Counted from the stretch's first letter, positions 14,298 to 26,198 are shown. The stretch is DNA of 64,000 nt from Chlorobiota bacterium (GCA_028287785.1 JAQBOZ010000015.1:1-64000), one strand, 5' to 3'. Numbers and translations are program-made. The notes: generated by a model from the sequence alone, not told the origin.

Positions 14298-15308
14298 ATG
14301 ATACAACGCTCGACGACACGACACCTTTTCGCCGCGGCGCTCGCGATGGCGGCGATTTCCGTTCCCGCATATGCTCAGACCACCCCCTCCCCCCTTGTCC
14401 AGCAGATGGCGACCGAGGCCGGCACCGTCACGCTGGAATACTGGACTCCGAAGCTGAACGACTACAAGACGCGGATCGATCGCGTCCTCTCCGCCGATGA
14501 TCTTGCGGCGCTGAACCGCCTTCGCGTTCGATGGGCGGTCATGACCGCCGACGGGCTGCGGTCGATAAAGGAGGCCAGGGTCTCCCACGGCGTCCGCGAT
14601 GGAAAGGAAGGCGCGGAGATGAAGATGGATGACAAGGCGATGGCCCGGTTCGGCGAGACGATGGAGATCTTCTCGCAGGCGAAGGAGATCGCCTCCCGCT
14701 ATCGCTCGGAACTCGACGGCCTGGGGAAGAACGTGGTCGGTGATTTCGCCGAATTCGCCGGCCAGCTCTCCGATCGCGCCGATCGTTTTGCCGCGGAGAA
14801 CGCTGATGCCATGCGGAAGGACCCGCAGGTCAAGGATATGCTCGCCGGTCGCGAAAAGCTGCGCGGGATGATGAAGGAGCTCAACTCCGAGAAGAAGCAG
14901 ACGGAGATCCTCTCCGTCTACACGTTCGCGCTGGAGCCGGTGGTCCTTCTCTATAACGGCGCCGATCTTCGCACGCTCTTCGAGAGCGCCGGCCCCATCG
15001 CCAAGCCGATTTCCGGCCTTACGCTCCCGGAAAGCTCCACGCTGAAGCAGAATTTCCCGAATCCGGCATCCACCACCACGCGGATCGTCTACAACCTGGC
15101 CGAGCCAAGCACGGCCACCGTGGTCAGGATCTACGATTCCCGTGGCGAGATCATGGCAACCTACGATCAGGGAGCCCAGGGAGAAGGTGAGCACACGCTG
15201 GATGCCGACGTCTCCAAGCTCGCCAGCGGTTCCTATCTCTATCATCTCACGGTTCGCACCGCGAACGGTGAGCGGGTCTACTCCAGGACGATGCAGGTCG
15301 TTCGCTGA
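14298..15308 (+). CDS. T9SS-sorted secreted protein, tandem family member 1
   Basis: 336 residues: Sec signal peptide (1-26, ending AYAQ), an all-helical central region, and a T9SS type A sorting domain from about residue 250. The central region has 'LEYWTPKLNDYKTRID', 'DDLAALNRLRVRW', 'IASRYRSELDGLGKNVVGDF' and 'LYNGADLRTLF'. The sorting domain reads 'LKQNFPNPASTTTRIVYNL', 'VVRIYDSRGEI', 'SGSYLYHLTV', 'YSRTMQVVR'. The same central motifs recur in the next two genes, which form a tandem family I cannot name. A GGAGGA ribosome-binding site precedes the ATG. The product is presumably delivered to the cell surface by the T9SS. Confidence 0.75.
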   Translation: MIQRSTTRHLFAAALAMAAISVPAYAQTTPSPLVQQMATEAGTVTLEYWTPKLNDYKTRIDRVLSADDLAALNRLRVRWAVMTADGLRSIKEARVSHGVRDGKEGAEMKMDDKAMARFGETMEIFSQAKEIASRYRSELDGLGKNVVGDFAEFAGQLSDRADRFAAENADAMRKDPQVKDMLAGREKLRGMMKELNSEKKQTEILSVYTFALEPVVLLYNGADLRTLFESAGPIAKPISGLTLPESSTLKQNFPNPASTTTRIVYNLAEPSTATVVRIYDSRGEIMATYDQGAQGEGEHTLDADVSKLASGSYLYHLTVRTANGERVYSRTMQVVR

Positions 15309-15341
15309 GGTTTTCCGAACGCCGGAACCAGATAGCCTTGA

Positions 15342-15381
15342 AATCACCCCGACCTCTTCCCGCGAAGGGCTCGGGGTGATT
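15342..15381 (+). terminator. Hairpin after family member 1
   Basis: An 11-bp stem, AATCACCCCGA with TCGGGGTGATT, has an 18-nt loop that can pair internally (CTTC/GAAG). It lies 34 bp beyond the stop codon. There is no long T run. Confidence 0.5.
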
Positions 15382-15484
15382 CGTATCCGAAGCAATATTC
15401 TTGTCCACCCCCCCGCCGCTGGCTATTATTGCGGCCTGTCACGATATCTATATTCTATTCCATCTCCGCCAGGAGGATGTTTAT

Positions 15485-16843
15485 ATGAACAATCAATCAC
15501 TACGTGCGGCCGCGCTGATCTTTTTTTTCGCAGCGGCGGCAACCGTCAACGCGTTTGCCCAGGAGGGGATCAGGGGGGAGGAGGACGCCTGCCAGAAACG
15601 GCAGGAGGCATTTATGAAGGAGCTGATTCAGGCCTCCCTGGATTACTGGTCGCCGAAGATGACCGCCTATCAGATCATGATCGACAAGACCTTGTCGAAG
15701 GAGGATCTCCAGGATCTGAACCAGCTCCGTGGCCGTTTCCTGCTGACGATCAGGACGATGAAGGATGCCCAGGTGAGGCTGGCCCAGCGGTACAAGGCCG
15801 AGCGTGAGGCCAGCATGAGGGGAATGTCAAAGCTGGGATCTGATGGATATGAGCATCCTTACTCTGAAGTGGATGTGGACAATGGGGCGGTGCGGGATTC
15901 GGGCCTGCCGGATTCGGTGATGATGGCACCTCACGACTCTGCGGCCGCCGCTGCCGCGTATGCTGCAATCGATTCAGCGACGCTTGCCGGGGAGGCCCGA
16001 CCGGACACCCCGCCGAAGGTGGTTTCGGTCGAAATGGAGGTAGTCGCCGATACGCTTGGCGCTTCGCCCGATGCTACCGCGCCTTCATATGAGCGTGGAG
16101 AATCGGATAACTCCGATGACGATGAGTACTATGGGGAATCGGCCGATCCCGACGCGCAGGTGATGGCGGAGTCATCGAGAGAAATGAAGAGCATGAATAC
16201 AACGACCATGAAGCTGGCGGAGCGCTACGAGAGCCGGTTGCAGGATCTCGACGGGCGGATGAAGAGCGATATGATGGAGTTCCTGCTCGTTCTCGCCGAG
16301 CGGATGCATAAGTTCGGGGCCAGCAACGATATGAGCATATGCTGGTCCGGCAACATGATGATGAACCAGGCTGTTTCCATGGAAACCGATTCGATTCGCA
16401 GGAATGCCGCCGACGATTTTTTCAAGAAAATTGGACCAACGCAGGCAAATGCGATCGTCATGCTTGTGGGGAATGATCTCGTCAATGTGATTCAGGCAGC
16501 AATGCAGGGGGAGCGGGGCGATTTCTCCGGCCTCCTTCCCCATAAGGAATCGGCGGCCCCGTCATCCAGCGCCACGCTGGAGCAGAACGCGCCAAACCCC
16601 GCATCCATCTCCACGGAGATCGCCTACATGCTCCCCGAGCCCAGCAGCGCCACGGTGATCACCCTCTACGGCACCGACGGCAAGGTGGCTGCCGCGTACG
16701 ATCAGGGAGCCCGCCCGGCGGGACGCCAGGTGGTGAAGATCGATGTCGGCGCCCTGACGCCGGGGACCTATGTCTACCGGCTGAAGATCAGCACATCGGC
16801 TGGGGATCGCGTCTTCTCCAGAACGATGCAGGTGGTCAGGTAG
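15485..16843 (+). CDS. T9SS-sorted secreted protein, tandem family member 2
   Basis: 452 residues. The ATG at 15485 is chosen because it begins the signal peptide ('NNQSLRAAALIFFFAAAATV', cleavage after AFAQ) and has AGGAGG upstream; the open frame begins earlier. 'LDYWSPKMTAYQIMIDKTL' and 'KEDLQDLNQLRGRF' match members 1 and 3. It differs by an insertion at about residues 110-225, rich in Ala, Asp, Ser, Glu and Pro and largely acidic, probably disordered. 'LAERYESRLQDLDGRMKSDM' then picks the shared fold up again. The C-terminal sorting domain starts at 'LEQNAPNPASISTEI' and ends 'FSRTMQVVR'. The 'LYNG.DLR.LF' motif of the siblings is degenerate here. Confidence 0.72.
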   Translation: MNNQSLRAAALIFFFAAAATVNAFAQEGIRGEEDACQKRQEAFMKELIQASLDYWSPKMTAYQIMIDKTLSKEDLQDLNQLRGRFLLTIRTMKDAQVRLAQRYKAEREASMRGMSKLGSDGYEHPYSEVDVDNGAVRDSGLPDSVMMAPHDSAAAAAAYAAIDSATLAGEARPDTPPKVVSVEMEVVADTLGASPDATAPSYERGESDNSDDDEYYGESADPDAQVMAESSREMKSMNTTTMKLAERYESRLQDLDGRMKSDMMEFLLVLAERMHKFGASNDMSICWSGNMMMNQAVSMETDSIRRNAADDFFKKIGPTQANAIVMLVGNDLVNVIQAAMQGERGDFSGLLPHKESAAPSSSATLEQNAPNPASISTEIAYMLPEPSSATVITLYGTDGKVAAAYDQGARPAGRQVVKIDVGALTPGTYVYRLKISTSAGDRVFSRTMQVVR

Positions 16844-17001
16844 AAGAAATGTTCGTGGGAGCTTCCCGGGGCACGCTCCGGGACTCCCGTTGTATCGAAA
16901 GGAGCACATAGCTCTTCAACGCTGTGCGCGTGAAGGATCGGTCGTCACTGTCCGATCCATCCCGCCATCGGCTCTCAAGGAACCAGCAAGGAAATCCGCG
17001 C

Positions 17002-18156
17002 ATGACCCGCCATTCGTTACGTCTGTTCGCCATCATCCTCGCGCTCGCGGCGATCATCACCGTTCCATCATCGGCGCAGCGCCGGGGAAAGGGAAAGCCG
17101 GCGACATCCAGAAAGCATATCGAGCAGATCGACACTTCCTACACCGATGAGAACTACCCGGCGGCGGAGAAGGAAACGCCGCTCGCCAAACAGCTCAAAT
17201 CGGATCTTGCCGTCACCGCGTTCGATTACTGGACGGTGAAGCTGAACAACTACAAGTCCCATATCGACGGGATGCTTGCACCGTGCGATCTCACCGAGGT
17301 CAACCGGCTCCGCGTCTACTGGAGCATCTTTCTGGACCAGAAGAAATGGCAGGGCCTTGCCACCAAGTTCAGGAAGGAGTTTGACGGGGGTGGTGATGAG
17401 GGGGATTCAGGGGGTGACGAGGGGGGCCCCGGCCCGTCGGGTATGAAGAAGAAGAAAGCCGAGGAGATCGGCGCGCTGGTGGACAACGTCAGCGAGATGG
17501 CTGAGACGTTCTTCGTGGCGAAGTGGATTGCCCGCCGCTATCGCCCGCAGTTCACCGCGATGCAGGAGACCGTTTCCGGCGATTTCACCGCGTTTATCGA
17601 TACCGTTATCGCCGCCAAGGATCGGTTCGCCCTCGCGCATCAGGCGGAGATAGCGAGTGATCCCTCCGTGCAGAATATCATGAAGGAGTTGAACCGCGAG
17701 AAGGCGGATGAGGCGATGAAGGAGTTCAGCTCAAAGGGTGATATGGGGATATTCGTCGGGCTTGGGTTCAACGTGCTGGTGGAGCCGCTGATGGTCCTCT
17801 ACAACGGGCAGGATCTCCGCCGGCTCTTCAAGAGCGTTGATGTCCTGCCGAAGGAGCTGAGCGAGCTGGAACTGGGGGATGCGTCTGTGCTTGAGCCGAA
17901 CGTGCCGAATCCCGCCGTTACCACGACCACGATCAACTACACTCTTCCGGAGGCGAGCAGCCGCACAACGCTCCGCCTGTACGACGCGCGCGGTGAACTG
18001 GTGGGGACCTACGATCAGGGGGATCGCCCGGCCGGCCGCTATCAGGTCAATGTCGATGTCTCCACGCTGTCAAGCGGGTTCTATCTCTATTATCTCACCA
18101 CGATGACATCGCAGGGGGAGCGGGTCTATTCCCGCACGCTTCAGGTGGCGCGATAG
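17002..18156 (+). CDS. T9SS-sorted secreted protein, tandem family member 3
   Basis: 384 residues, starting at the ATG that opens a signal peptide ('MTRHSLRLFAIILALAAIIT', cleavage near SSAQ). Shared family motifs: 'FDYWTVKLNNYKSHIDGML', 'CDLTEVNRLRVYW', 'IARRYRPQFTAMQETVSGDF', 'DRFALAHQAEI', 'VEPLMVLYNGQDLRRLF'. A Gly/Asp-rich loop ('GGGDEGDSGGDEGGPG') interrupts the middle. The sorting domain runs from 'LEPNVPNPAVTTTTINY' to 'YSRTLQVAR'. It is the third of three consecutive paralogues; the conserved YW, ID, DL.xLN.LR and RYR positions suggest a real fold with its own function. Terminator at 18182. Confidence 0.72.
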   Translation: MTRHSLRLFAIILALAAIITVPSSAQRRGKGKPATSRKHIEQIDTSYTDENYPAAEKETPLAKQLKSDLAVTAFDYWTVKLNNYKSHIDGMLAPCDLTEVNRLRVYWSIFLDQKKWQGLATKFRKEFDGGGDEGDSGGDEGGPGPSGMKKKKAEEIGALVDNVSEMAETFFVAKWIARRYRPQFTAMQETVSGDFTAFIDTVIAAKDRFALAHQAEIASDPSVQNIMKELNREKADEAMKEFSSKGDMGIFVGLGFNVLVEPLMVLYNGQDLRRLFKSVDVLPKELSELELGDASVLEPNVPNPAVTTTTINYTLPEASSRTTLRLYDARGELVGTYDQGDRPAGRYQVNVDVSTLSSGFYLYYLTTMTSQGERVYSRTLQVAR

Positions 18157-18382: not shown

Positions 18383-20065
18383 ATGAATAATCCTCTTCGT
18401 CGCTCTCTCCGCGTGCCGGTCTTCGTCATCATCCCCGTGACCGTGCTTGTCGTGGTCGCCGTTACGGCGTTTCGCTGGAAGGATGAAAACGATTACTATT
18501 TCAAGGTCAACAAGGGGCTGGAGACGTTCGGGCAGGTCTACCGGGAAGTGACGCAGAACTATGTCGATCAGGTCGATCCGGAAACGTTTATCAACGCCGG
18601 CATCGACGGGATGCTGAAAACGCTCGATCCCTATACCTCCTATCTTCGGAGGAAGGATGCCGCCGATATCGACCTGCTGACCAGCGGAACCTACGGCGGC
18701 ATCGGCATCACCGTCGGCATACGGGACAGCGCCGTCACCATCGTCGATGTCGTGGACGGCTATTCCGCGCAGCGCGAGGGGGTCCGTATCGGCGACAAGA
18801 TCAAATCGATCAACGGGGCCCAGCTCCTTCACAGCCCGGTGGATGCCCTGCGCGAGTACACGCGCGGCGAGCCGGGGACCACATTGCAGATGACCGTCCT
18901 GCGCGACGGCGTCGCCGATTCGCTGACATTTACCCTCACGCGGGAGAACATCAAGGTCCGAAGCATCCCCTACAGCGGGCGGATCATCGACGGCGTGGGC
19001 TATATCAAACTGGAGCGTTTCAGCTCCAACGCCGGCGACGAATTGCGGAACGCGCTTCTGGACCTGAAGCAGCAGGGCGCCTTCAAGGGTGTCATCCTCG
19101 ATCTCCGCGATAATCCGGGAGGGCTTCTGGAGTCCGCCGTCGACGTGGGCTCGAAATTCCTCCCCTACGGAAGCGTGATCGTCACCACCCGCGGGCGGGA
19201 TTCATCGGAGGATCATATCTATCGCTCCGATGAGGAGCCGATCGCGGCGGGTGTTCCGCTTGTGGTGCTGATCAACGGCGGCTCCGCATCCGCCTCGGAG
19301 ATCGTCGCCGGCGCCATTCAGGATCTGGATGCTGGCGTGATTCTCGGGTCGCGGAGCTACGGCAAGGGGCTGGTGCAGTCGGTGCGGCGCCTGCCGTATG
19401 ACGCGACGCTCAAGATCACGACCGCCCGGTATTACACGCCATCGGGGAGGAGCATTCAGAAGATCGATTATCTGATGCAGCGGAGCGGGACATCGAGCTT
19501 CGCCGCCGATTCGGCCAACAGGTATCGCACGGCGGCCGGACGGGAGCTTACCTTCCACGGCGGCATCATCCCGGACACGGTTGTGGATCTCTCCGCCGCC
19601 ACCGATTTTGTCGATGAGTTGCGTGATGCCTCGATCTTCTTCAATTTTGCGACGCGGTACGCCGCCGGCCTCCGATCGCTCCCCGAGGATTTCGCGGTCG
19701 ACAATACGCTGATCAAGCAGTTCGAGGATTTCACGCTGGAGAATCTCCAGCGCACCGGCTCGGGCTCCGCATCGCTCGCCAGGGTGAACGACCTGTATGC
19801 CTCGGCGAAGAAGGAGGGCTATAATTCCGACATGCTCAGGAAGATCGACGGCATTCGCACCGATCTCTCGGGCGAGGAGCGGAACCTGCTGCGGGATCAT
19901 CGCGACGAGATACGGCGGGAGCTGTACAACGAGATCGTCAATCGCTTCCGTGGACAGCACGAACGGATGGAGGCGATGCTCAGGAACGACGATCAGATTC
20001 AGGCCGCCGTTGGCCTCCTCCGCTCCGGTCGCCGGGAATACGGCAGGCTGCTCAGCTCCCGATAG
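18383..20065 (+). CDS. C-terminal processing peptidase (S41 family)
   Basis: 560 residues. An N-terminal signal anchor (about 10-30, 'RVPVFVIIPVTVLVVVAVTA') puts the enzyme in the periplasm. A PDZ domain follows at about 100-185 ('GGIGITVGIRD', 'SAQREGVRIGDKIKSINGAQ'), then the tail-specific protease domain with 'GYIKLERFS', 'VILDLRDNPGGLLESAVDV' and the Ser303/Lys328 dyad in 'GGSASASEIVAGA' and 'GSRSYGKGLVQ'; their 25-residue spacing is the canonical one. S41A proteases cut C-terminal tails of envelope proteins. Sitting beside many T9SS cargo genes is suggestive but not proof of a processing role. A C-terminal helical extension (about 420-560) is typical of this group in Bacteroidota. Confidence 0.92.
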   Translation: MNNPLRRSLRVPVFVIIPVTVLVVVAVTAFRWKDENDYYFKVNKGLETFGQVYREVTQNYVDQVDPETFINAGIDGMLKTLDPYTSYLRRKDAADIDLLTSGTYGGIGITVGIRDSAVTIVDVVDGYSAQREGVRIGDKIKSINGAQLLHSPVDALREYTRGEPGTTLQMTVLRDGVADSLTFTLTRENIKVRSIPYSGRIIDGVGYIKLERFSSNAGDELRNALLDLKQQGAFKGVILDLRDNPGGLLESAVDVGSKFLPYGSVIVTTRGRDSSEDHIYRSDEEPIAAGVPLVVLINGGSASASEIVAGAIQDLDAGVILGSRSYGKGLVQSVRRLPYDATLKITTARYYTPSGRSIQKIDYLMQRSGTSSFAADSANRYRTAAGRELTFHGGIIPDTVVDLSAATDFVDELRDASIFFNFATRYAAGLRSLPEDFAVDNTLIKQFEDFTLENLQRTGSGSASLARVNDLYASAKKEGYNSDMLRKIDGIRTDLSGEERNLLRDHRDEIRRELYNEIVNRFRGQHERMEAMLRNDDQIQAAVGLLRSGRREYGRLLSSR

Positions 20066-20747: not shown

Positions 20748-21089
20748 CCCGCTCGCCCGCATGATGCCGGTGATGATCATTACAGGGAGTGGCCGGGAAT
20801 TGAATCCCGTCCGCTCCCTGTCCGTTTATCCCCCTCCCCGGTGTCATCATTCCACGTGGCGGCATGTTCCGCGCGTTGCGATGCCCGCACAACCCGCTGG
20901 CCTCATTGTTGCGACCATCGATCTCTACACTTTCAGATGCGTCCGGCTTCCTGTATGTTACGGCCGGTGTGGTGTTCCCGTTCTCGAGCGGGGAATCCGG
21001 CACCGATGGCGGCGACCCACGAGGCCGTCCGCCGGACCTCATGCTCCCGGTCCATCGATCTCCGCTGAACTCTTCACGACAGGTTGGAT
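20748..21089. other. Intergenic region before giant surface protein
   Basis: 342 bp. It holds the hairpin at 20782-20821 and nothing else I recognise; no promoter motif stands out. Confidence 0.5.
20782..20821 (+). terminator. Hairpin after small exported protein gene
   Basis: The outer stem ACAGGGAG/CTCCCTGT (8 bp) encloses an inner CGGGA/TCCCG stem. It lies 34 bp after the stop codon. The T tract is short (CCGTTTA). Confidence 0.55.
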
Positions 21090-24000
21090 ATGAAATCAAC
21101 GATTACGTCCCTGCTCGCGCTCCTGCTCCTTGCCACCGTCGCCCGGGCGCAGCCCGGCGTCTTCTATATGGTCCCGGATATCGGCGCGGCGGGGATGAAC
21201 ACCTATGTGGAGATTGTGGCTCCGGTCGGATCGGCGTTTACGTTCGGCAATCCGGACCAGATGTATCTCAACAATGGAAGTGATAACGTCAGCGTTCAGC
21301 CGGTGAATGCGGCGGACAACAACCGCGTGGTGATTGGGCCGGTGGTGGTAAGCTGGAGCGGCCGGCTGATATCGACGCAGATCTTCGTAAAGCCCGGAGC
21401 GGCGAATGGGCCGGTCCCACTGAAGATCACTGTGGGGGCGACCACGACGCTCATCAATGATTTTACGATCGTCACCCCGCAGGTGCTGGGAATTGCGGGA
21501 ACGGTAACGGGCGGCGGCGCGCTCGGCAGCGGTGGCGTGCTTGGCGTCCGCTCGCCGCGTGGCGCGATGATCGTCTCAAGTCTCTTTCTCAAGGGGGGAA
21601 TCTATACGGTCGATACGACCGATAGAGATGCCGCCGTGGCCGGCAACCAGGGCTTCCTTCCCCTGATCCTGATCTCCAAGGGAGTGCTTGCCATCAACTC
21701 CGATGCACGGCTGAGTTCCAACGGCGCAACATCCTACGCGGGCCCCGGCGGCGGCGGCGGCGGCGGGCGGGTCTGCGACGCGACATTCTTCAACCCGAAC
21801 CCCATCGGGGCGGACGGGGGGAGCGGCTTTACCGGCGGTGGCGGTGGCGGCCGGAACAACGGCGGTTCCAGCGTTGAGCGCGATCCCGGCTCCGGCACGG
21901 GAGCGCAGGGGCTGTTCAACGGGAAGAAGATTTCGTACAGCATGAACGGCGTGCGGGGAGGGGCATCCAGCTACGTCTGCGGCAACCCTGAATCCGCCGG
22001 TGGCGGAACCGGACACCCCTTCGGGCTTGGCGGCGACGGCACGTGCGGAACCACCACCCCTCCGGGGGGACAATATGGTGGTGGAAGCGGCAATCTCGAT
22101 AACGGCACGGGCGGCGGCGGTGGCTATGGCACCAACGGGGCCAATGGCAGCGGCGCCTCCAATGGCGGGCATGTCCACGGCAACCGCATGGGAGTGCCCG
22201 TGGCGGGGGGCTCCGGCGGCGGCAGCTCCAACCCGAAATTTGTCGCAGGTGGCTGCGGCTCGGCCGGTGGCGGCGGCGGCGGGGCGATGGCTCTCTTTTC
22301 GATGGATGCGCTGAATGGCAACATCGTGGAGGCGATCGGTGGAAACGCGGAGAGCGTGACGCCGGTGGGTGGTTCGGGCTCGGGAGGATATGTCGAGCTT
22401 GGCGCCAAGGTTCAGAAATCATTCGGCGGGACCGGCAATGTCAGCGGCGGCACCACCGGCTCGGCGGGTGGCCTGGGAAGGGCACGATACGATGGGGGAT
22501 TTACCACGGGTGCGCCGACATTCGGCGCGGCGACCCCGTTCATCGGGCCGACGATCGATACGCTCACCTATATCCAGTCGAAGACTTTCACCGTGAGCGG
22601 TACTTATGGCGGCGTTGTCGGCGAGCCGGTGCAGGTCTACATGCGCGGTGATATCGGCAACTGGACGCTGGTGCCGGGCCTTACCTTCGGTGCCAACCGG
22701 ACGTGGAGCGTAAATGTGACAGTGACCGGCGGAAAGGGGAATTACTATTTCGCGGCGCTTCAGACGGTCGCCGCCCCTTCATCGGCGGCGTATCTCAACG
22801 AGCCGGGCTATGTCCTCTCGCAGGCGGCGGCGAACATCGTCACGGTGGACCTGATCCCGAAGATCAATGTGGACCGGACGACGCTTACCTTCAGGGATAT
22901 CGTCTGCGAGCCGTTCCTGCTGGACTCGGTCAAGATCTGGAACAGCGGCGATGACACGCTCAGGATCACCCCGACGTTTGCCAACGGCGCCACGGCGGAT
23001 TTCAGCCTGGTGCAGCCCATCAGGCCGCTCGCTCCCAACGATACGGTCTGGGCCTATATCAAATTTTCGCCGACGACTCCGGGGACCAGGACTGTCGATT
23101 TCGTTCTGACCAACAACGATCCCCGTCCGGGAAAGAACCCGACGATCATCAAGCTCACCGGGCGGAAGCTGAACTTCCAGCCATCGCTCACGCAGACCAG
23201 CCCCAATCTCGGCGATGTCTGCACCGATTCCACGACATCGCTCTCCTTCAATTTCAATTATACCGGCGATATCCCCGATACGATCGTCTCGATCACCCGG
23301 CTCGGCACCGGCCCCGCGGCGTTTACGATCACCGGGCCGGTCATCCCGGCAACCGGGCTGATCTTCCTCAACCCGACCAGCAGCGGGACGATCGTGGTGC
23401 GATTCCGCCCGCCATCGGTCGGAAACTTCGTCGATTCATTCCGCGTGCTGACCAGGCCGTGCAACCTGCCGCTCACGTTCACCGTGCGGGGTCGCGGCTA
23501 CGCCAACAGCATCGAGGTAACGCCCGACCCGCTCGATTTCGGGCAGGTGCGCGTGGGGCAGACCGCGACCACGCCGGGCTTCACCGTGAAGAACACCGGC
23601 ATACTTGACGGGACCATCACCGACGCCTATATCACCCCGGCCGGCGCTCCATTCGTCGTGGCCCCGTCGTTGAAGGGGACGCTGATTCCCGCGGGCGGCT
23701 CGGTTCCCGGCACCGTGAGCTTCACCCCGCTTTCGTCCGGCCCGTTCAACGCGCAGCTCTGCGTGGTGTTCGGCACCACATGCCGCGATACGGTATGCGT
23801 GGCGCTGAAGGGGGAAGGGGTGACATCGCTGCTGGTGCTTTCGCGGAAGAAGATCACGTTGAGCGCCGATTCCTGCGCCGATGTTCCGCCATCGGTTACC
23901 GACACGTTCAAGCTCTACAACCACGGAACCGCCTCCGTGCAGATCGATGCCGCCACCGCCGTCAACGGCCTGGCGATGCTCTCCCCATCGAAACCGATTC

Positions 24001-26198
24001 CCGGAAGCCTGGCCGCCGGCGACTCCATTCTCTTTACGGTGACATGGTCGCCGGGGGGAGCCGGGACCGAGCAGTTCAAGATCCTGACGCAGGCGGAGGA
24101 CCCGTCGCAGAAGGTGATGCTGGTGGATGCCACGCTGCGGCGCGAGCGCGGGGGAATCGATCTGCTGAAGGGTGATGGGACTCCGCTGCCGGCCGCGATC
24201 GATCTGGGAAATATCTTCGACTGCACGACCGGCGGAAAAAGCTATCAGCTTACCATCAGGAACACCGGCACGCTGGCCGAAAACGTCAACGCCTCCTTTG
24301 TGGCGGGGGGAATATTCAGCATAACCCCGTCACCGCTGTATGCGATTCCCACCGGCGGCCGGCAGGATATCACCCTGGGCTTCAACTCCGGCGCCACCGG
24401 CGATTACACCGATACGCTCGTGATCGGTGAGGGGATCTGCGGCAGGGAAACCCGGATTCCGGTGACGGGACATCGCTACAGCGTGAGCTTCGCGACCACC
24501 GGCATCACGTTCGGCAACTCCAACGTCGGGGTGGCGAAGGTCGGCACGGCATCGGCGCAGAACACAAGCGATCCGAAGACGCCGAACAACGTGAAGGTGA
24601 ATATCGCCGGCGCCTTCATCACGCAGAGCGGCAGCGAGTTCGCGATCGTCCAGCCGACCGGGCTTCCGAAGGGGCTTGCGACGAACGAGGCTGCCACGGT
24701 CGATGTGACGTTTACGCCATCAGGGCAGACATCCTACAATGCCCAGCTCTGTTTCTATACCGACTCCCCATGTCCCGACACAATCTGCCAGCCGCTTACC
24801 GGCACCGGCATCATGTCGAGCATCGTGGTTCGCCAGAGCAGCGTGAACTTCGGGACGCGCTATATCTGCCAGGACTCCATCACCACGATCTCGATCAGAA
24901 ACAGCGGCAACGCCCCGCTGAACGTGCTGGGGCTCGATCTTGGCGGGGCCGATGCCGCGGCATTCCAGGAGTTGACGGGGCTGACCTTCCCCGTCACGAT
25001 TTCGCCGGCCGATTCGATCATGATCAAACTGCGGTTCAACCCGGCTGGCGTTTCCGGCGATGGGCTGAAAAACGCGACGCTGACGATCAGAAGCGATGAT
25101 GCGGCGCAGCCATCGATCGTGGTATCGCTGATCGGCGAGCGGCGCAAGCAGGCGCTCTCCACGCCGAACCAGCTCGATTTCGGCCGGGTGGATGTTGGGA
25201 CCACGGTGCTTGATACGCTGACGCTGGAGAACAGAACATCCGCGCCGATGCGGATCGAATCGTTCACGCTCGGCGCGCCGTTCGTGATCGTCTCCCCCAC
25301 CGGATCGCTGACGATCGCGCCGTTCGACTCGGTGAAGGTGATCGTCCGTTTCGCCCCGGCCGACAGCAACGCCGCCACGGCGACGCTGGTTGGGGTTGCC
25401 AGCTCCCCCTGTGCCGACACGACCAGGGTTCCGGTTACGGGGCGCGGGAGAATCCAGCAGATCGGCGTCGCGGAGATCCTCATCCCGGATTCGCTTCACG
25501 CGAAGGCGGGGGACAGGATATCGATACCGATCGTCCTCTCCAGCGGCAGCAACCTGAAGGAATCGCAGGCCACGACCTTCAGCGCCACGGTCCGGTTCAA
25601 CGCATCGATGCTCCTGCCGCTGGGCGTCAGGGCACGGGGCGAGCCATTGTTGAAGGGATCGGTGATATCGGTGGGCTCAATTACGTCAAGCAAGGTAGTG
25701 GGAAATGAACGCGTCGTGACCTTCCAGATCACGAACTCCCAGCTTCCGACAGCTCCCGATACGCTCGGCTTCCTCGATGCCCGCGCCGCTCTGGGGGACT
25801 CGATCATCACGCCGATCACGATCGACACGCTGTTCTGGACCGACGGCAAGGTGAACACGACGACGCACGGCGGCAGCTTTACGCTCGACGGATACTGCGT
25901 TGCCGGCGGAACACGGCTGTTCCGTCTGACCGGCGGTTTCGGAATCAAGGCGGCGGTGCCGAACCCGTTCAATCCCGCGACGGTGATCACATTCGAGACC
26001 GCCGAGCTGGGGCCGACATCGCTGGTGATCTACGATCTCTACGGCGGGCTGGTCGAAACACTGGTCGATCGCCGCTCGATGCCCATCGGCTCATTTGATG
26101 CTGTCTGGCATGCGGAGACCTGTTCCTCGGGCGTATATTACGCCGTGCTGACATCACCGACGCAGCGGAGCATCCAACAGCTCGTGCTGGTCAAGTAA
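21090..26198 (+). CDS. Giant ASH-repeat surface protein with T9SS sorting domain
   Basis: About 1702 residues. The ATG at 21090 opens the signal peptide ('MKSTITSLLALLLLATVARA'); a TTG two codons earlier is an alternative. Layout: beta-rich N-terminus to about 205; a Gly-rich region to about 480 with runs of G and clustered cysteines; then at least seven choice-of-anchor-D/ASH-type Ig-like repeats to about 1460, each with a 'LDFG.V.VG.T' start and a 'NTG' turn and most with a Cys pair. A cohesin-like domain follows ('AGDRISIPIVLSSG', 'VRFNASMLLPLGV'), and last the sorting domain 'PNPFNPATVITFETAEL...VIYDLYGG...SSGVYYAVL'. Expected at the cell surface, perhaps adhesive or structural. The downstream OmpA gene starts within 133 bp on the same strand. 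Confidence 0.85.
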   Translation: MKSTITSLLALLLLATVARAQPGVFYMVPDIGAAGMNTYVEIVAPVGSAFTFGNPDQMYLNNGSDNVSVQPVNAADNNRVVIGPVVVSWSGRLISTQIFVKPGAANGPVPLKITVGATTTLINDFTIVTPQVLGIAGTVTGGGALGSGGVLGVRSPRGAMIVSSLFLKGGIYTVDTTDRDAAVAGNQGFLPLILISKGVLAINSDARLSSNGATSYAGPGGGGGGGRVCDATFFNPNPIGADGGSGFTGGGGGGRNNGGSSVERDPGSGTGAQGLFNGKKISYSMNGVRGGASSYVCGNPESAGGGTGHPFGLGGDGTCGTTTPPGGQYGGGSGNLDNGTGGGGGYGTNGANGSGASNGGHVHGNRMGVPVAGGSGGGSSNPKFVAGGCGSAGGGGGGAMALFSMDALNGNIVEAIGGNAESVTPVGGSGSGGYVELGAKVQKSFGGTGNVSGGTTGSAGGLGRARYDGGFTTGAPTFGAATPFIGPTIDTLTYIQSKTFTVSGTYGGVVGEPVQVYMRGDIGNWTLVPGLTFGANRTWSVNVTVTGGKGNYYFAALQTVAAPSSAAYLNEPGYVLSQAAANIVTVDLIPKINVDRTTLTFRDIVCEPFLLDSVKIWNSGDDTLRITPTFANGATADFSLVQPIRPLAPNDTVWAYIKFSPTTPGTRTVDFVLTNNDPRPGKNPTIIKLTGRKLNFQPSLTQTSPNLGDVCTDSTTSLSFNFNYTGDIPDTIVSITRLGTGPAAFTITGPVIPATGLIFLNPTSSGTIVVRFRPPSVGNFVDSFRVLTRPCNLPLTFTVRGRGYANSIEVTPDPLDFGQVRVGQTATTPGFTVKNTGILDGTITDAYITPAGAPFVVAPSLKGTLIPAGGSVPGTVSFTPLSSGPFNAQLCVVFGTTCRDTVCVALKGEGVTSLLVLSRKKITLSADSCADVPPSVTDTFKLYNHGTASVQIDAATAVNGLAMLSPSKPIPGSLAAGDSILFTVTWSPGGAGTEQFKILTQAEDPSQKVMLVDATLRRERGGIDLLKGDGTPLPAAIDLGNIFDCTTGGKSYQLTIRNTGTLAENVNASFVAGGIFSITPSPLYAIPTGGRQDITLGFNSGATGDYTDTLVIGEGICGRETRIPVTGHRYSVSFATTGITFGNSNVGVAKVGTASAQNTSDPKTPNNVKVNIAGAFITQSGSEFAIVQPTGLPKGLATNEAATVDVTFTPSGQTSYNAQLCFYTDSPCPDTICQPLTGTGIMSSIVVRQSSVNFGTRYICQDSITTISIRNSGNAPLNVLGLDLGGADAAAFQELTGLTFPVTISPADSIMIKLRFNPAGVSGDGLKNATLTIRSDDAAQPSIVVSLIGERRKQALSTPNQLDFGRVDVGTTVLDTLTLENRTSAPMRIESFTLGAPFVIVSPTGSLTIAPFDSVKVIVRFAPADSNAATATLVGVASSPCADTTRVPVTGRGRIQQIGVAEILIPDSLHAKAGDRISIPIVLSSGSNLKESQATTFSATVRFNASMLLPLGVRARGEPLLKGSVISVGSITSSKVVGNERVVTFQITNSQLPTAPDTLGFLDARAALGDSIITPITIDTLFWTDGKVNTTTHGGSFTLDGYCVAGGTRLFRLTGGFGIKAAVPNPFNPATVITFETAELGPTSLVIYDLYGGLVETLVDRRSMPIGSFDAVWHAETCSSGVYYAVLTSPTQRSIQQLVLVK

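Follow-up and report, generated by a model that had tools for sequence, protein, structure and literature searches.

Three tandem genes for predicted T9SS cargo proteins with an uncatalogued helical core, probably a sensing or binding domain at the cell surface

What might three neighbouring genes do when their products share a core that resembles no known domain? The question is raised by P1, P2 and P3, which are co-oriented neighbouring open reading frames on the plus strand of the window, the 64,000-nt stretch of DNA analysed here (Table 1). The host is a little-studied Bacteroidota bacterium. An initial annotation had described a tandem triplet of an unrecognised T9SS cargo family between positions 14298 and 18156, and this observation mostly holds: three consecutive co-oriented ORFs were found there. 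The start of P2 was set at the ATG at position 15485 on account of a clear AGGAGG upstream, and the better start of P3 is the ATG at position 17002.

Table 1. Features of the P1–P3 locus and of the adjoining protease gene (positions in the window)
Feature	Coordinates	Strand	Description
P1	14298..15308	+	336 aa; signal peptide, helical core, T9SS type A sorting domain
P1 helices 1-2	14385..14585	+	residues 30-96; signature YW...K...Y...ID..LS..DL..LN.LR
P1 helix 2-3 loop	14586..14630	+	residues 97-111, lower model confidence; variable site of the family
P1 core end and linker start	14928..15020	+	motif EPVVLLYNGADLRTLF, from alignments
P1 Ig-like T9SS sorting domain, C-terminal	15045..15305	+	PF18962 1.2e-7, TIGR04183 4.3e-7
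P2	15485..16843	+	452 aa; architecture as P1; most diverged of the trio
P2 acidic low-complexity insertion	15776..16171	+	helix 2-3 connection; about 132 aa with a net charge of -18
P3	17002..18156	+	384 aa; architecture as P1
P3 Gly/Asp-rich loop DGGGDEGDSGGDEGG	17356..17481	+	42 aa, helix 2-3 connection
S41 C-terminal processing protease	18383..20065	+	PF03572 2.4e-50

The homology of the three products was confirmed, far above chance, by BLASTP, with E-values of 1e-69 for P1 against P3 (38% over 326 aa), 1.8e-30 for P1 against P2 and 7.9e-28 for P2 against P3. The N-terminal core segment alone gave 1.9e-10 between P1 and P2. The common core was thus recovered. The motifs quoted for all three members are present in P1 and P3, whereas P2 retains one of the three, the first: it shows RYESRLQDLDGRMKSDM where P1 and P3 have RYR..GDF, and MLVGNDLVNVI in place of LYNG.DLR.LF. 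In alignments, EPVVLLYNGADLRTLF of P1 is the counterpart of RFMLWDG in the wider family. The cores are approximately 27–37% identical. The sorting domains had been called near-identical, a description that could not be kept, their identity being only 52–56% at the amino acid level and 63–65% at the DNA level; the duplications are therefore old.

All three proteins start with a typical Sec signal with an A-x-A end, as seen by eye in the translations. The sorting tails of P1 and P3 match PF18962 above the cut-off (1.1e-7 for P3) and also pass the NCBIfam cut-offs. That of P2 is sub-threshold (PF18962 0.0026), but the region is still homologous to the tails of P1 and P3. In a Foldseek search with the model of P1, the sorting domain matched PorU (6za2) and FlgD (3osv). 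The same genome encodes the T9SS machinery, including PorU (E-value 4.9e-247, 821 bits) and SprA (9.6e-242, 804 bits). As predicted T9SS cargo, P1–P3 are unexceptional and belong to a known kind, type A cargo (TIGR04183/PF18962), with which they share the signal peptide and the C-terminal Ig-like sorting domain. They differ from it in the core, a helical domain absent from every library searched, and some members of the core family have no sorting domain.

The AlphaFold2 model of P1, based on 43 sequences, had a mean pLDDT of 84.6 and a pTM of 0.79. Its core helices span residues 32–63, 66–96, 112–133, 136–167, 176–195, 198–218 and 224–230 and are followed by the sorting domain. The model of a paralogue in the same genome, L025 (pLDDT 80.6, pTM 0.75), shows four long helices as in P1. 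From these models we are confident that the core is predicted to be all-helical, with four long helices and additional C-terminal helices. In the model, the LS..DL..LN.LR signature lies at the turn between helices 1 and 2, and D61, D68, L72, L75, R76, L218 and G221 (P1 numbering) are near-invariant in the family. The most variable site of the family is the connection between helices 2 and 3, mostly acidic and modelled with lower confidence. The acidic or Gly/Asp insertions of the paralogues are all placed there, including those already described as a divergent middle in P2 and P3. This loop, of approximately 15 to 130 aa, is different in each paralogue: 25 residues in P1, 42 in P3, 132 in P2, 88 in L024, and 56–59 in the membrane proteins L018 and L019 presented below.

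The core gave no convincing family match against Pfam, NCBIfam, PHROGs and PDB sequences, the sorting domain alone being recognised. In Foldseek searches of the PDB, the core of the P1 model yielded just long-helix noise beside the sorting-domain matches, and the core-only paralogue retrieved 14-3-3 and coiled-coil look-alikes (best E-value 0.68). With VIA-align the best Z-score of the core was 8.6 over 56 residues, a range common for helical bundles. Neither structure search gave a confident fold. The initial annotation had named, as counter-evidence, a confident assignment of the core to an established domain; such an assignment was looked for and not found. The core is indeed unassignable to a known domain in Pfam, NCBIfam and the PDB sequences, and none of the libraries searched catalogues this helical domain.

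The first profile search of the genome contigs, with alignment A1, detected no relative. Later profile searches detected the core in all five genomes of the window's family, in 40 of 294 genomes of the class and in a few elsewhere in the phylum. Labels on the named records that carry it include Candidatus Kapaibacterium, Ignavibacteria(les) and Chlorobiota. This survey of copy number, proposed at the outset, revealed 1 to 4 copies per genome and mostly a single one; most class members are single copies whose loop is short (DEDY in several). A fourth core in the same genome is that of L025 (G000 C18:56293-56967, 243 aa), in which the sorting domain is absent. The designation "T9SS cargo family" suits the three proteins of the window; it does not suit the whole family, since members occur with or without the sorting domain, as L025 illustrates, and the core is also present in the membrane proteins L018 and L019. 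The tree displayed two branches with full support, "LYNG" and "LWDG". The former is confined to the window's family, and the latter is class-wide, its members measuring approximately 210–240 aa without a sorting domain and 280–370 aa with one. The profiles of the two branches align along the whole core (hhalign E-value 1e-58 with flanks, for A2 against A6, and 7e-39 for the core only), the underlying alignments A2 and A3 having some LWDG rows in common. Across the class, no conservation was found in the neighbourhood of the stand-alone core genes.

The syntenic locus of a genome of the same genus (G001) holds one P gene, in the order exonuclease III, PD40/OmpA protein, membrane-protein gene, P, S41 protease and giant T9SS protein. 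In two other genomes of the window's family (G003 and G004), a single P gene is likewise followed by the same S41 protease. P1 is the member of the trio with these single-copy counterparts adjoining the protease gene in three other genomes. The triplet of the window is therefore a local expansion, in agreement with the tandem amplification initially put forward; parallel losses elsewhere are less likely. The adjacency of P and S41 is kept in four genomes (G000, G001, G003 and G004) belonging to two genera, and G002 possesses P without an adjoining S41 gene. Hairpin-like palindromes were seen by eye in the P1–P2, P2–P3 and P3–S41 gaps; the automatic terminator scan gave no flag at these sites. 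The palindromes suggest that the P genes are separate transcription units, and the S41 gene is probably a unit separate from P3. An operon comprising P and S41 was judged unlikely because of them.

A different context of the core was observed in two closely related genomes of one genus. In G003:C90 (L019) and G004:C38 (L018), it lies inside a protein of 480–499 aa without N-terminal signal peptide. The N-terminus is a short region, LDDLFAQAK.VPLLPSEERV, ahead of a single transmembrane segment (residues 56–76) preceded by positive charges. After it come a P/S/T-containing linker, the core (E-value about 1e-67) and the C-terminal sorting domain (PF18962 4.5e-9). Immediately upstream is an ECF sigma gene (PF04542, Sigma70_r2, 2e-11; PF08281, r4_2, 1e-12). 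The core thereby takes the C-terminal, sensor-domain position of an anti-sigma-like protein. In the window, no ECF gene is adjacent to P1–P3.

Relatives of this sigma factor were detected in 32 of the 41 genomes searched (E <= 1e-12). The gene next to them was inspected at 30 loci and 31 proteins were scanned, including the two that bear the core. Twenty-three carry a T9SS sorting domain; judged by sequence, six of the others look beta-barrel-ended and one PD40/PorE-like, and the last is unassigned. The proteins beside this sigma group are alike in their N-terminal layout and differ in their C-terminal domains. The host of the window possesses two such loci, C27 (L145) and C13 (L225), where the sensor domain is a different one. 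Homology of that non-core sensor domain to the core was considered and was undetectable, just a 13-column motif being aligned. One member of alignment A9 matches an NCBIfam anti-sigma model (E-value 0.0081). From gene order and layout, we infer that the N-terminal regions of these proteins may bind and inhibit the sigma factor.

The arrangement recalls the Dma anti-sigma factors of Bacteroides, which consist of an N-terminal anti-sigma domain, a transmembrane segment, a disordered tether and a beta-barrel (PMC13088901). L018 and L019 similarly show an adjoining ECF sigma gene, a short N-terminal region, one transmembrane segment, a linker and an outer C-terminal domain, but they end in the core and a T9SS sorting domain where Dma ends in a beta-barrel. 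No report of T9SS-tailed anti-sigma factors was found in the open-access literature searched; the occurrence of the core in an anti-sigma-like protein with a T9SS tail represents a new variant. A link between a CTD protein and ECF signalling is also known from PorA of Porphyromonas gingivalis, which is reported to pass a signal from the surface on to the ECF sigma factor SigP (PMC7712824). PorA acts through PorXY and its N-terminal domain is FimH-like (PMC7712824), a fold unrelated to the helical core.

The core is found both in free proteins, periplasmic or outside, and in the outer position on a membrane switch, and on this ground we propose, as the simplest reading, that it senses a signal or binds a ligand or client. 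It probably does so at the cell surface, and P1–P3 would be its free, exported forms. The complete proposal, that P1–P3 are exported T9SS proteins whose uncatalogued core is an extracytoplasmic sensing or ligand-binding module, is put forward tentatively. In this model, P1–P3 would first be exported by Sec and then cross the outer membrane by the T9SS, the sorting domain being cleaved off or attached to the cell surface. The helical core would bind a ligand, an ion or a misfolded or surface protein, with a specificity tuned by the helix 2–3 loop. The free forms might scavenge or report signals of the class that, through the form fused to the anti-sigma part, would lead to sigma release. The amplification to three would have provided paralogues that differ in their loops and probably also in their partners. 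Against the proposal, the fused form is limited to two closely related genomes and differs from P1–P3, which start with a signal peptide and have neither an anti-sigma part nor a transmembrane segment; moreover, the core shows no evident catalytic or metal site, and the class-wide absence of a conserved neighbourhood around the stand-alone genes also speaks against it.

The main rival to a sensing module is remote membership of the core in the LTXXQ (Spy/CpxP) superfamily of ATP-independent envelope chaperones. P1–P3 would then be versions exported to the outer membrane or the surface, protecting other T9SS cargo or envelope proteins there. The relationship is suggestive at the level of sequence. 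The LS..DL..LN.LR signature is in register with LT..Q...L..LR, followed in both by a helix, a loop and a helix. When the wider family (A6) was compared by hhalign with LTXXQ proteins of the same lineage, 91% was obtained with the signal peptides included and 38–40% without them, compared to 1% for a Skp control. The core is also helical, predicted to be secreted and tied to an ECF switch in two genomes, and sigma/anti-sigma pairs share transcripts with spy genes in Bacteroidales (PMC13114119), which we count in favour of a chaperone. However, the window-like alignment A3 gave just 0.3–0.5%, and the hhalign score of 27 lay within the range of a 7-residue block shuffle (mean 16.5, sd 3.8, maximum 30.5), so that the profile match is not significant after controls. 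A shuffle test with hmmsearch was discarded as unspecific, the unrelated Skp family scoring equally. No Pfam LTXXQ match appeared among the matches listed for the 32 family members scanned, and true LTXXQ proteins are encoded separately in the same genome. The core family, despite its likeness to PF07813 (exported, helical, motif register), has an extra C-terminal (Y/W)(N/D)G element. We consider membership in this superfamily unlikely.

It is similarly doubtful that P1–P3 are structural or adhesive proteins of the surface layer, diversified against phage, grazers or partners and devoid of a signalling role. Predicted T9SS export, the tandem copies, a loop distinct in each paralogue and a copy number that depends on the genome would all fit. 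The "surface system under diversification" suggested initially is only partly supported: divergence is concentrated in one loop, but the copies are old and show no recent amplification. The mostly single-copy, short-loop members of the class, and the presence of the same core in an anti-sigma-like protein, also argue against a purely structural role. Less probable again is that P1–P3 neither sense nor act as chaperones but have some unrelated function, for instance the binding of metal or small molecules: the acidic, Gly/Asp-rich loops and the conserved acidic residues could bind cations, but the loop residues are not conserved between members. Finally, a role of the P proteins as substrates, inhibitors or adaptors of the S41 protease would explain the conserved adjacency and is very improbable, this adjacency being limited to two genera and lacking in G002, the genes being separated by gaps with hairpin-like palindromes, and no S41 neighbour recurring in the wider family.

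The preferred reading, the core as a sensing or binding module, can be carried further. The core would then serve as an interchangeable sensor at the surface for a new dual-membrane variant of anti-sigma factor, anchored in the inner membrane and passing the outer one by the T9SS, with P1–P3 as free decoys, co-sensors or ligand carriers, and the T9SS would take part in signalling from the outside to RNA polymerase. We regard this extended form as improbable as it stands. The locus has nevertheless led to a helical domain, uncatalogued and with clear near-invariant positions, that occurs across a Bacteroidota class, and to ECF-linked transmembrane proteins with a T9SS sorting domain at the C-terminal end, in place of the beta-barrel of the known Dma factors. 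If these tails truly reach the surface, the T9SS belongs to a signal path, which would bear on how Bacteroidota sense the environment outside their outer membrane.

Two members of the family defined by the uncatalogued helical core stand side by side in a genome from another family of the same class (L127:3082-4905, on G127:C152), one of them with a sorting domain and the other without. This pair is a tandem duplication independent of that in the window. The giant protein encoded downstream in the window has a syntenic counterpart, with 50% identity, in the same-genus genome G001.

Giant protein encoded downstream in the window
Feature	Window position	Size	Composition
Giant protein	21084-26198	1704 aa	HYDIN/ASH-type Ig domains, glycine-rich stretch, weak T9SS tail

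OmpH/Skp (PF03938) was found in 20 of the 20 relatives searched and gave no match in the whole window genome, G000; as this assembly is 95% complete, the missing match may reflect an assembly gap.

By whole-genome counts of Sigma70_r4_2 matches (about 44-58 per genome, except 15 in G002), G000 and the same-family genomes G001-G004 are rich in ECF sigma factors. One group of these factors, spread across the class, was observed in regions of G000-G040 (L207-L236, and the loci of the core-bearing anti-sigma-like proteins L018 and L019). The gene following the sigma gene often overlaps its stop codon and encodes a one-TM protein. G000 itself holds two sigma/T9SS-tailed pairs, L145:337-2588 (C27) and L225 (C13), in which the sensor domain shows no detectable homology to the core, and the sorting domain is preceded by a motif resembling ILWYYPTPEFVAALP. 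A C-terminal T9SS sorting domain was present in 23 of the 31 ECF-linked one-TM proteins scanned; the others appear to have a PD40/PorE-like domain or a barrel of the outer-membrane type at that end. The T9SS-tailed proteins linked to ECF sigma genes appear to be counterparts of the Dma anti-sigma factors of Bacteroides, which end in a beta-barrel.
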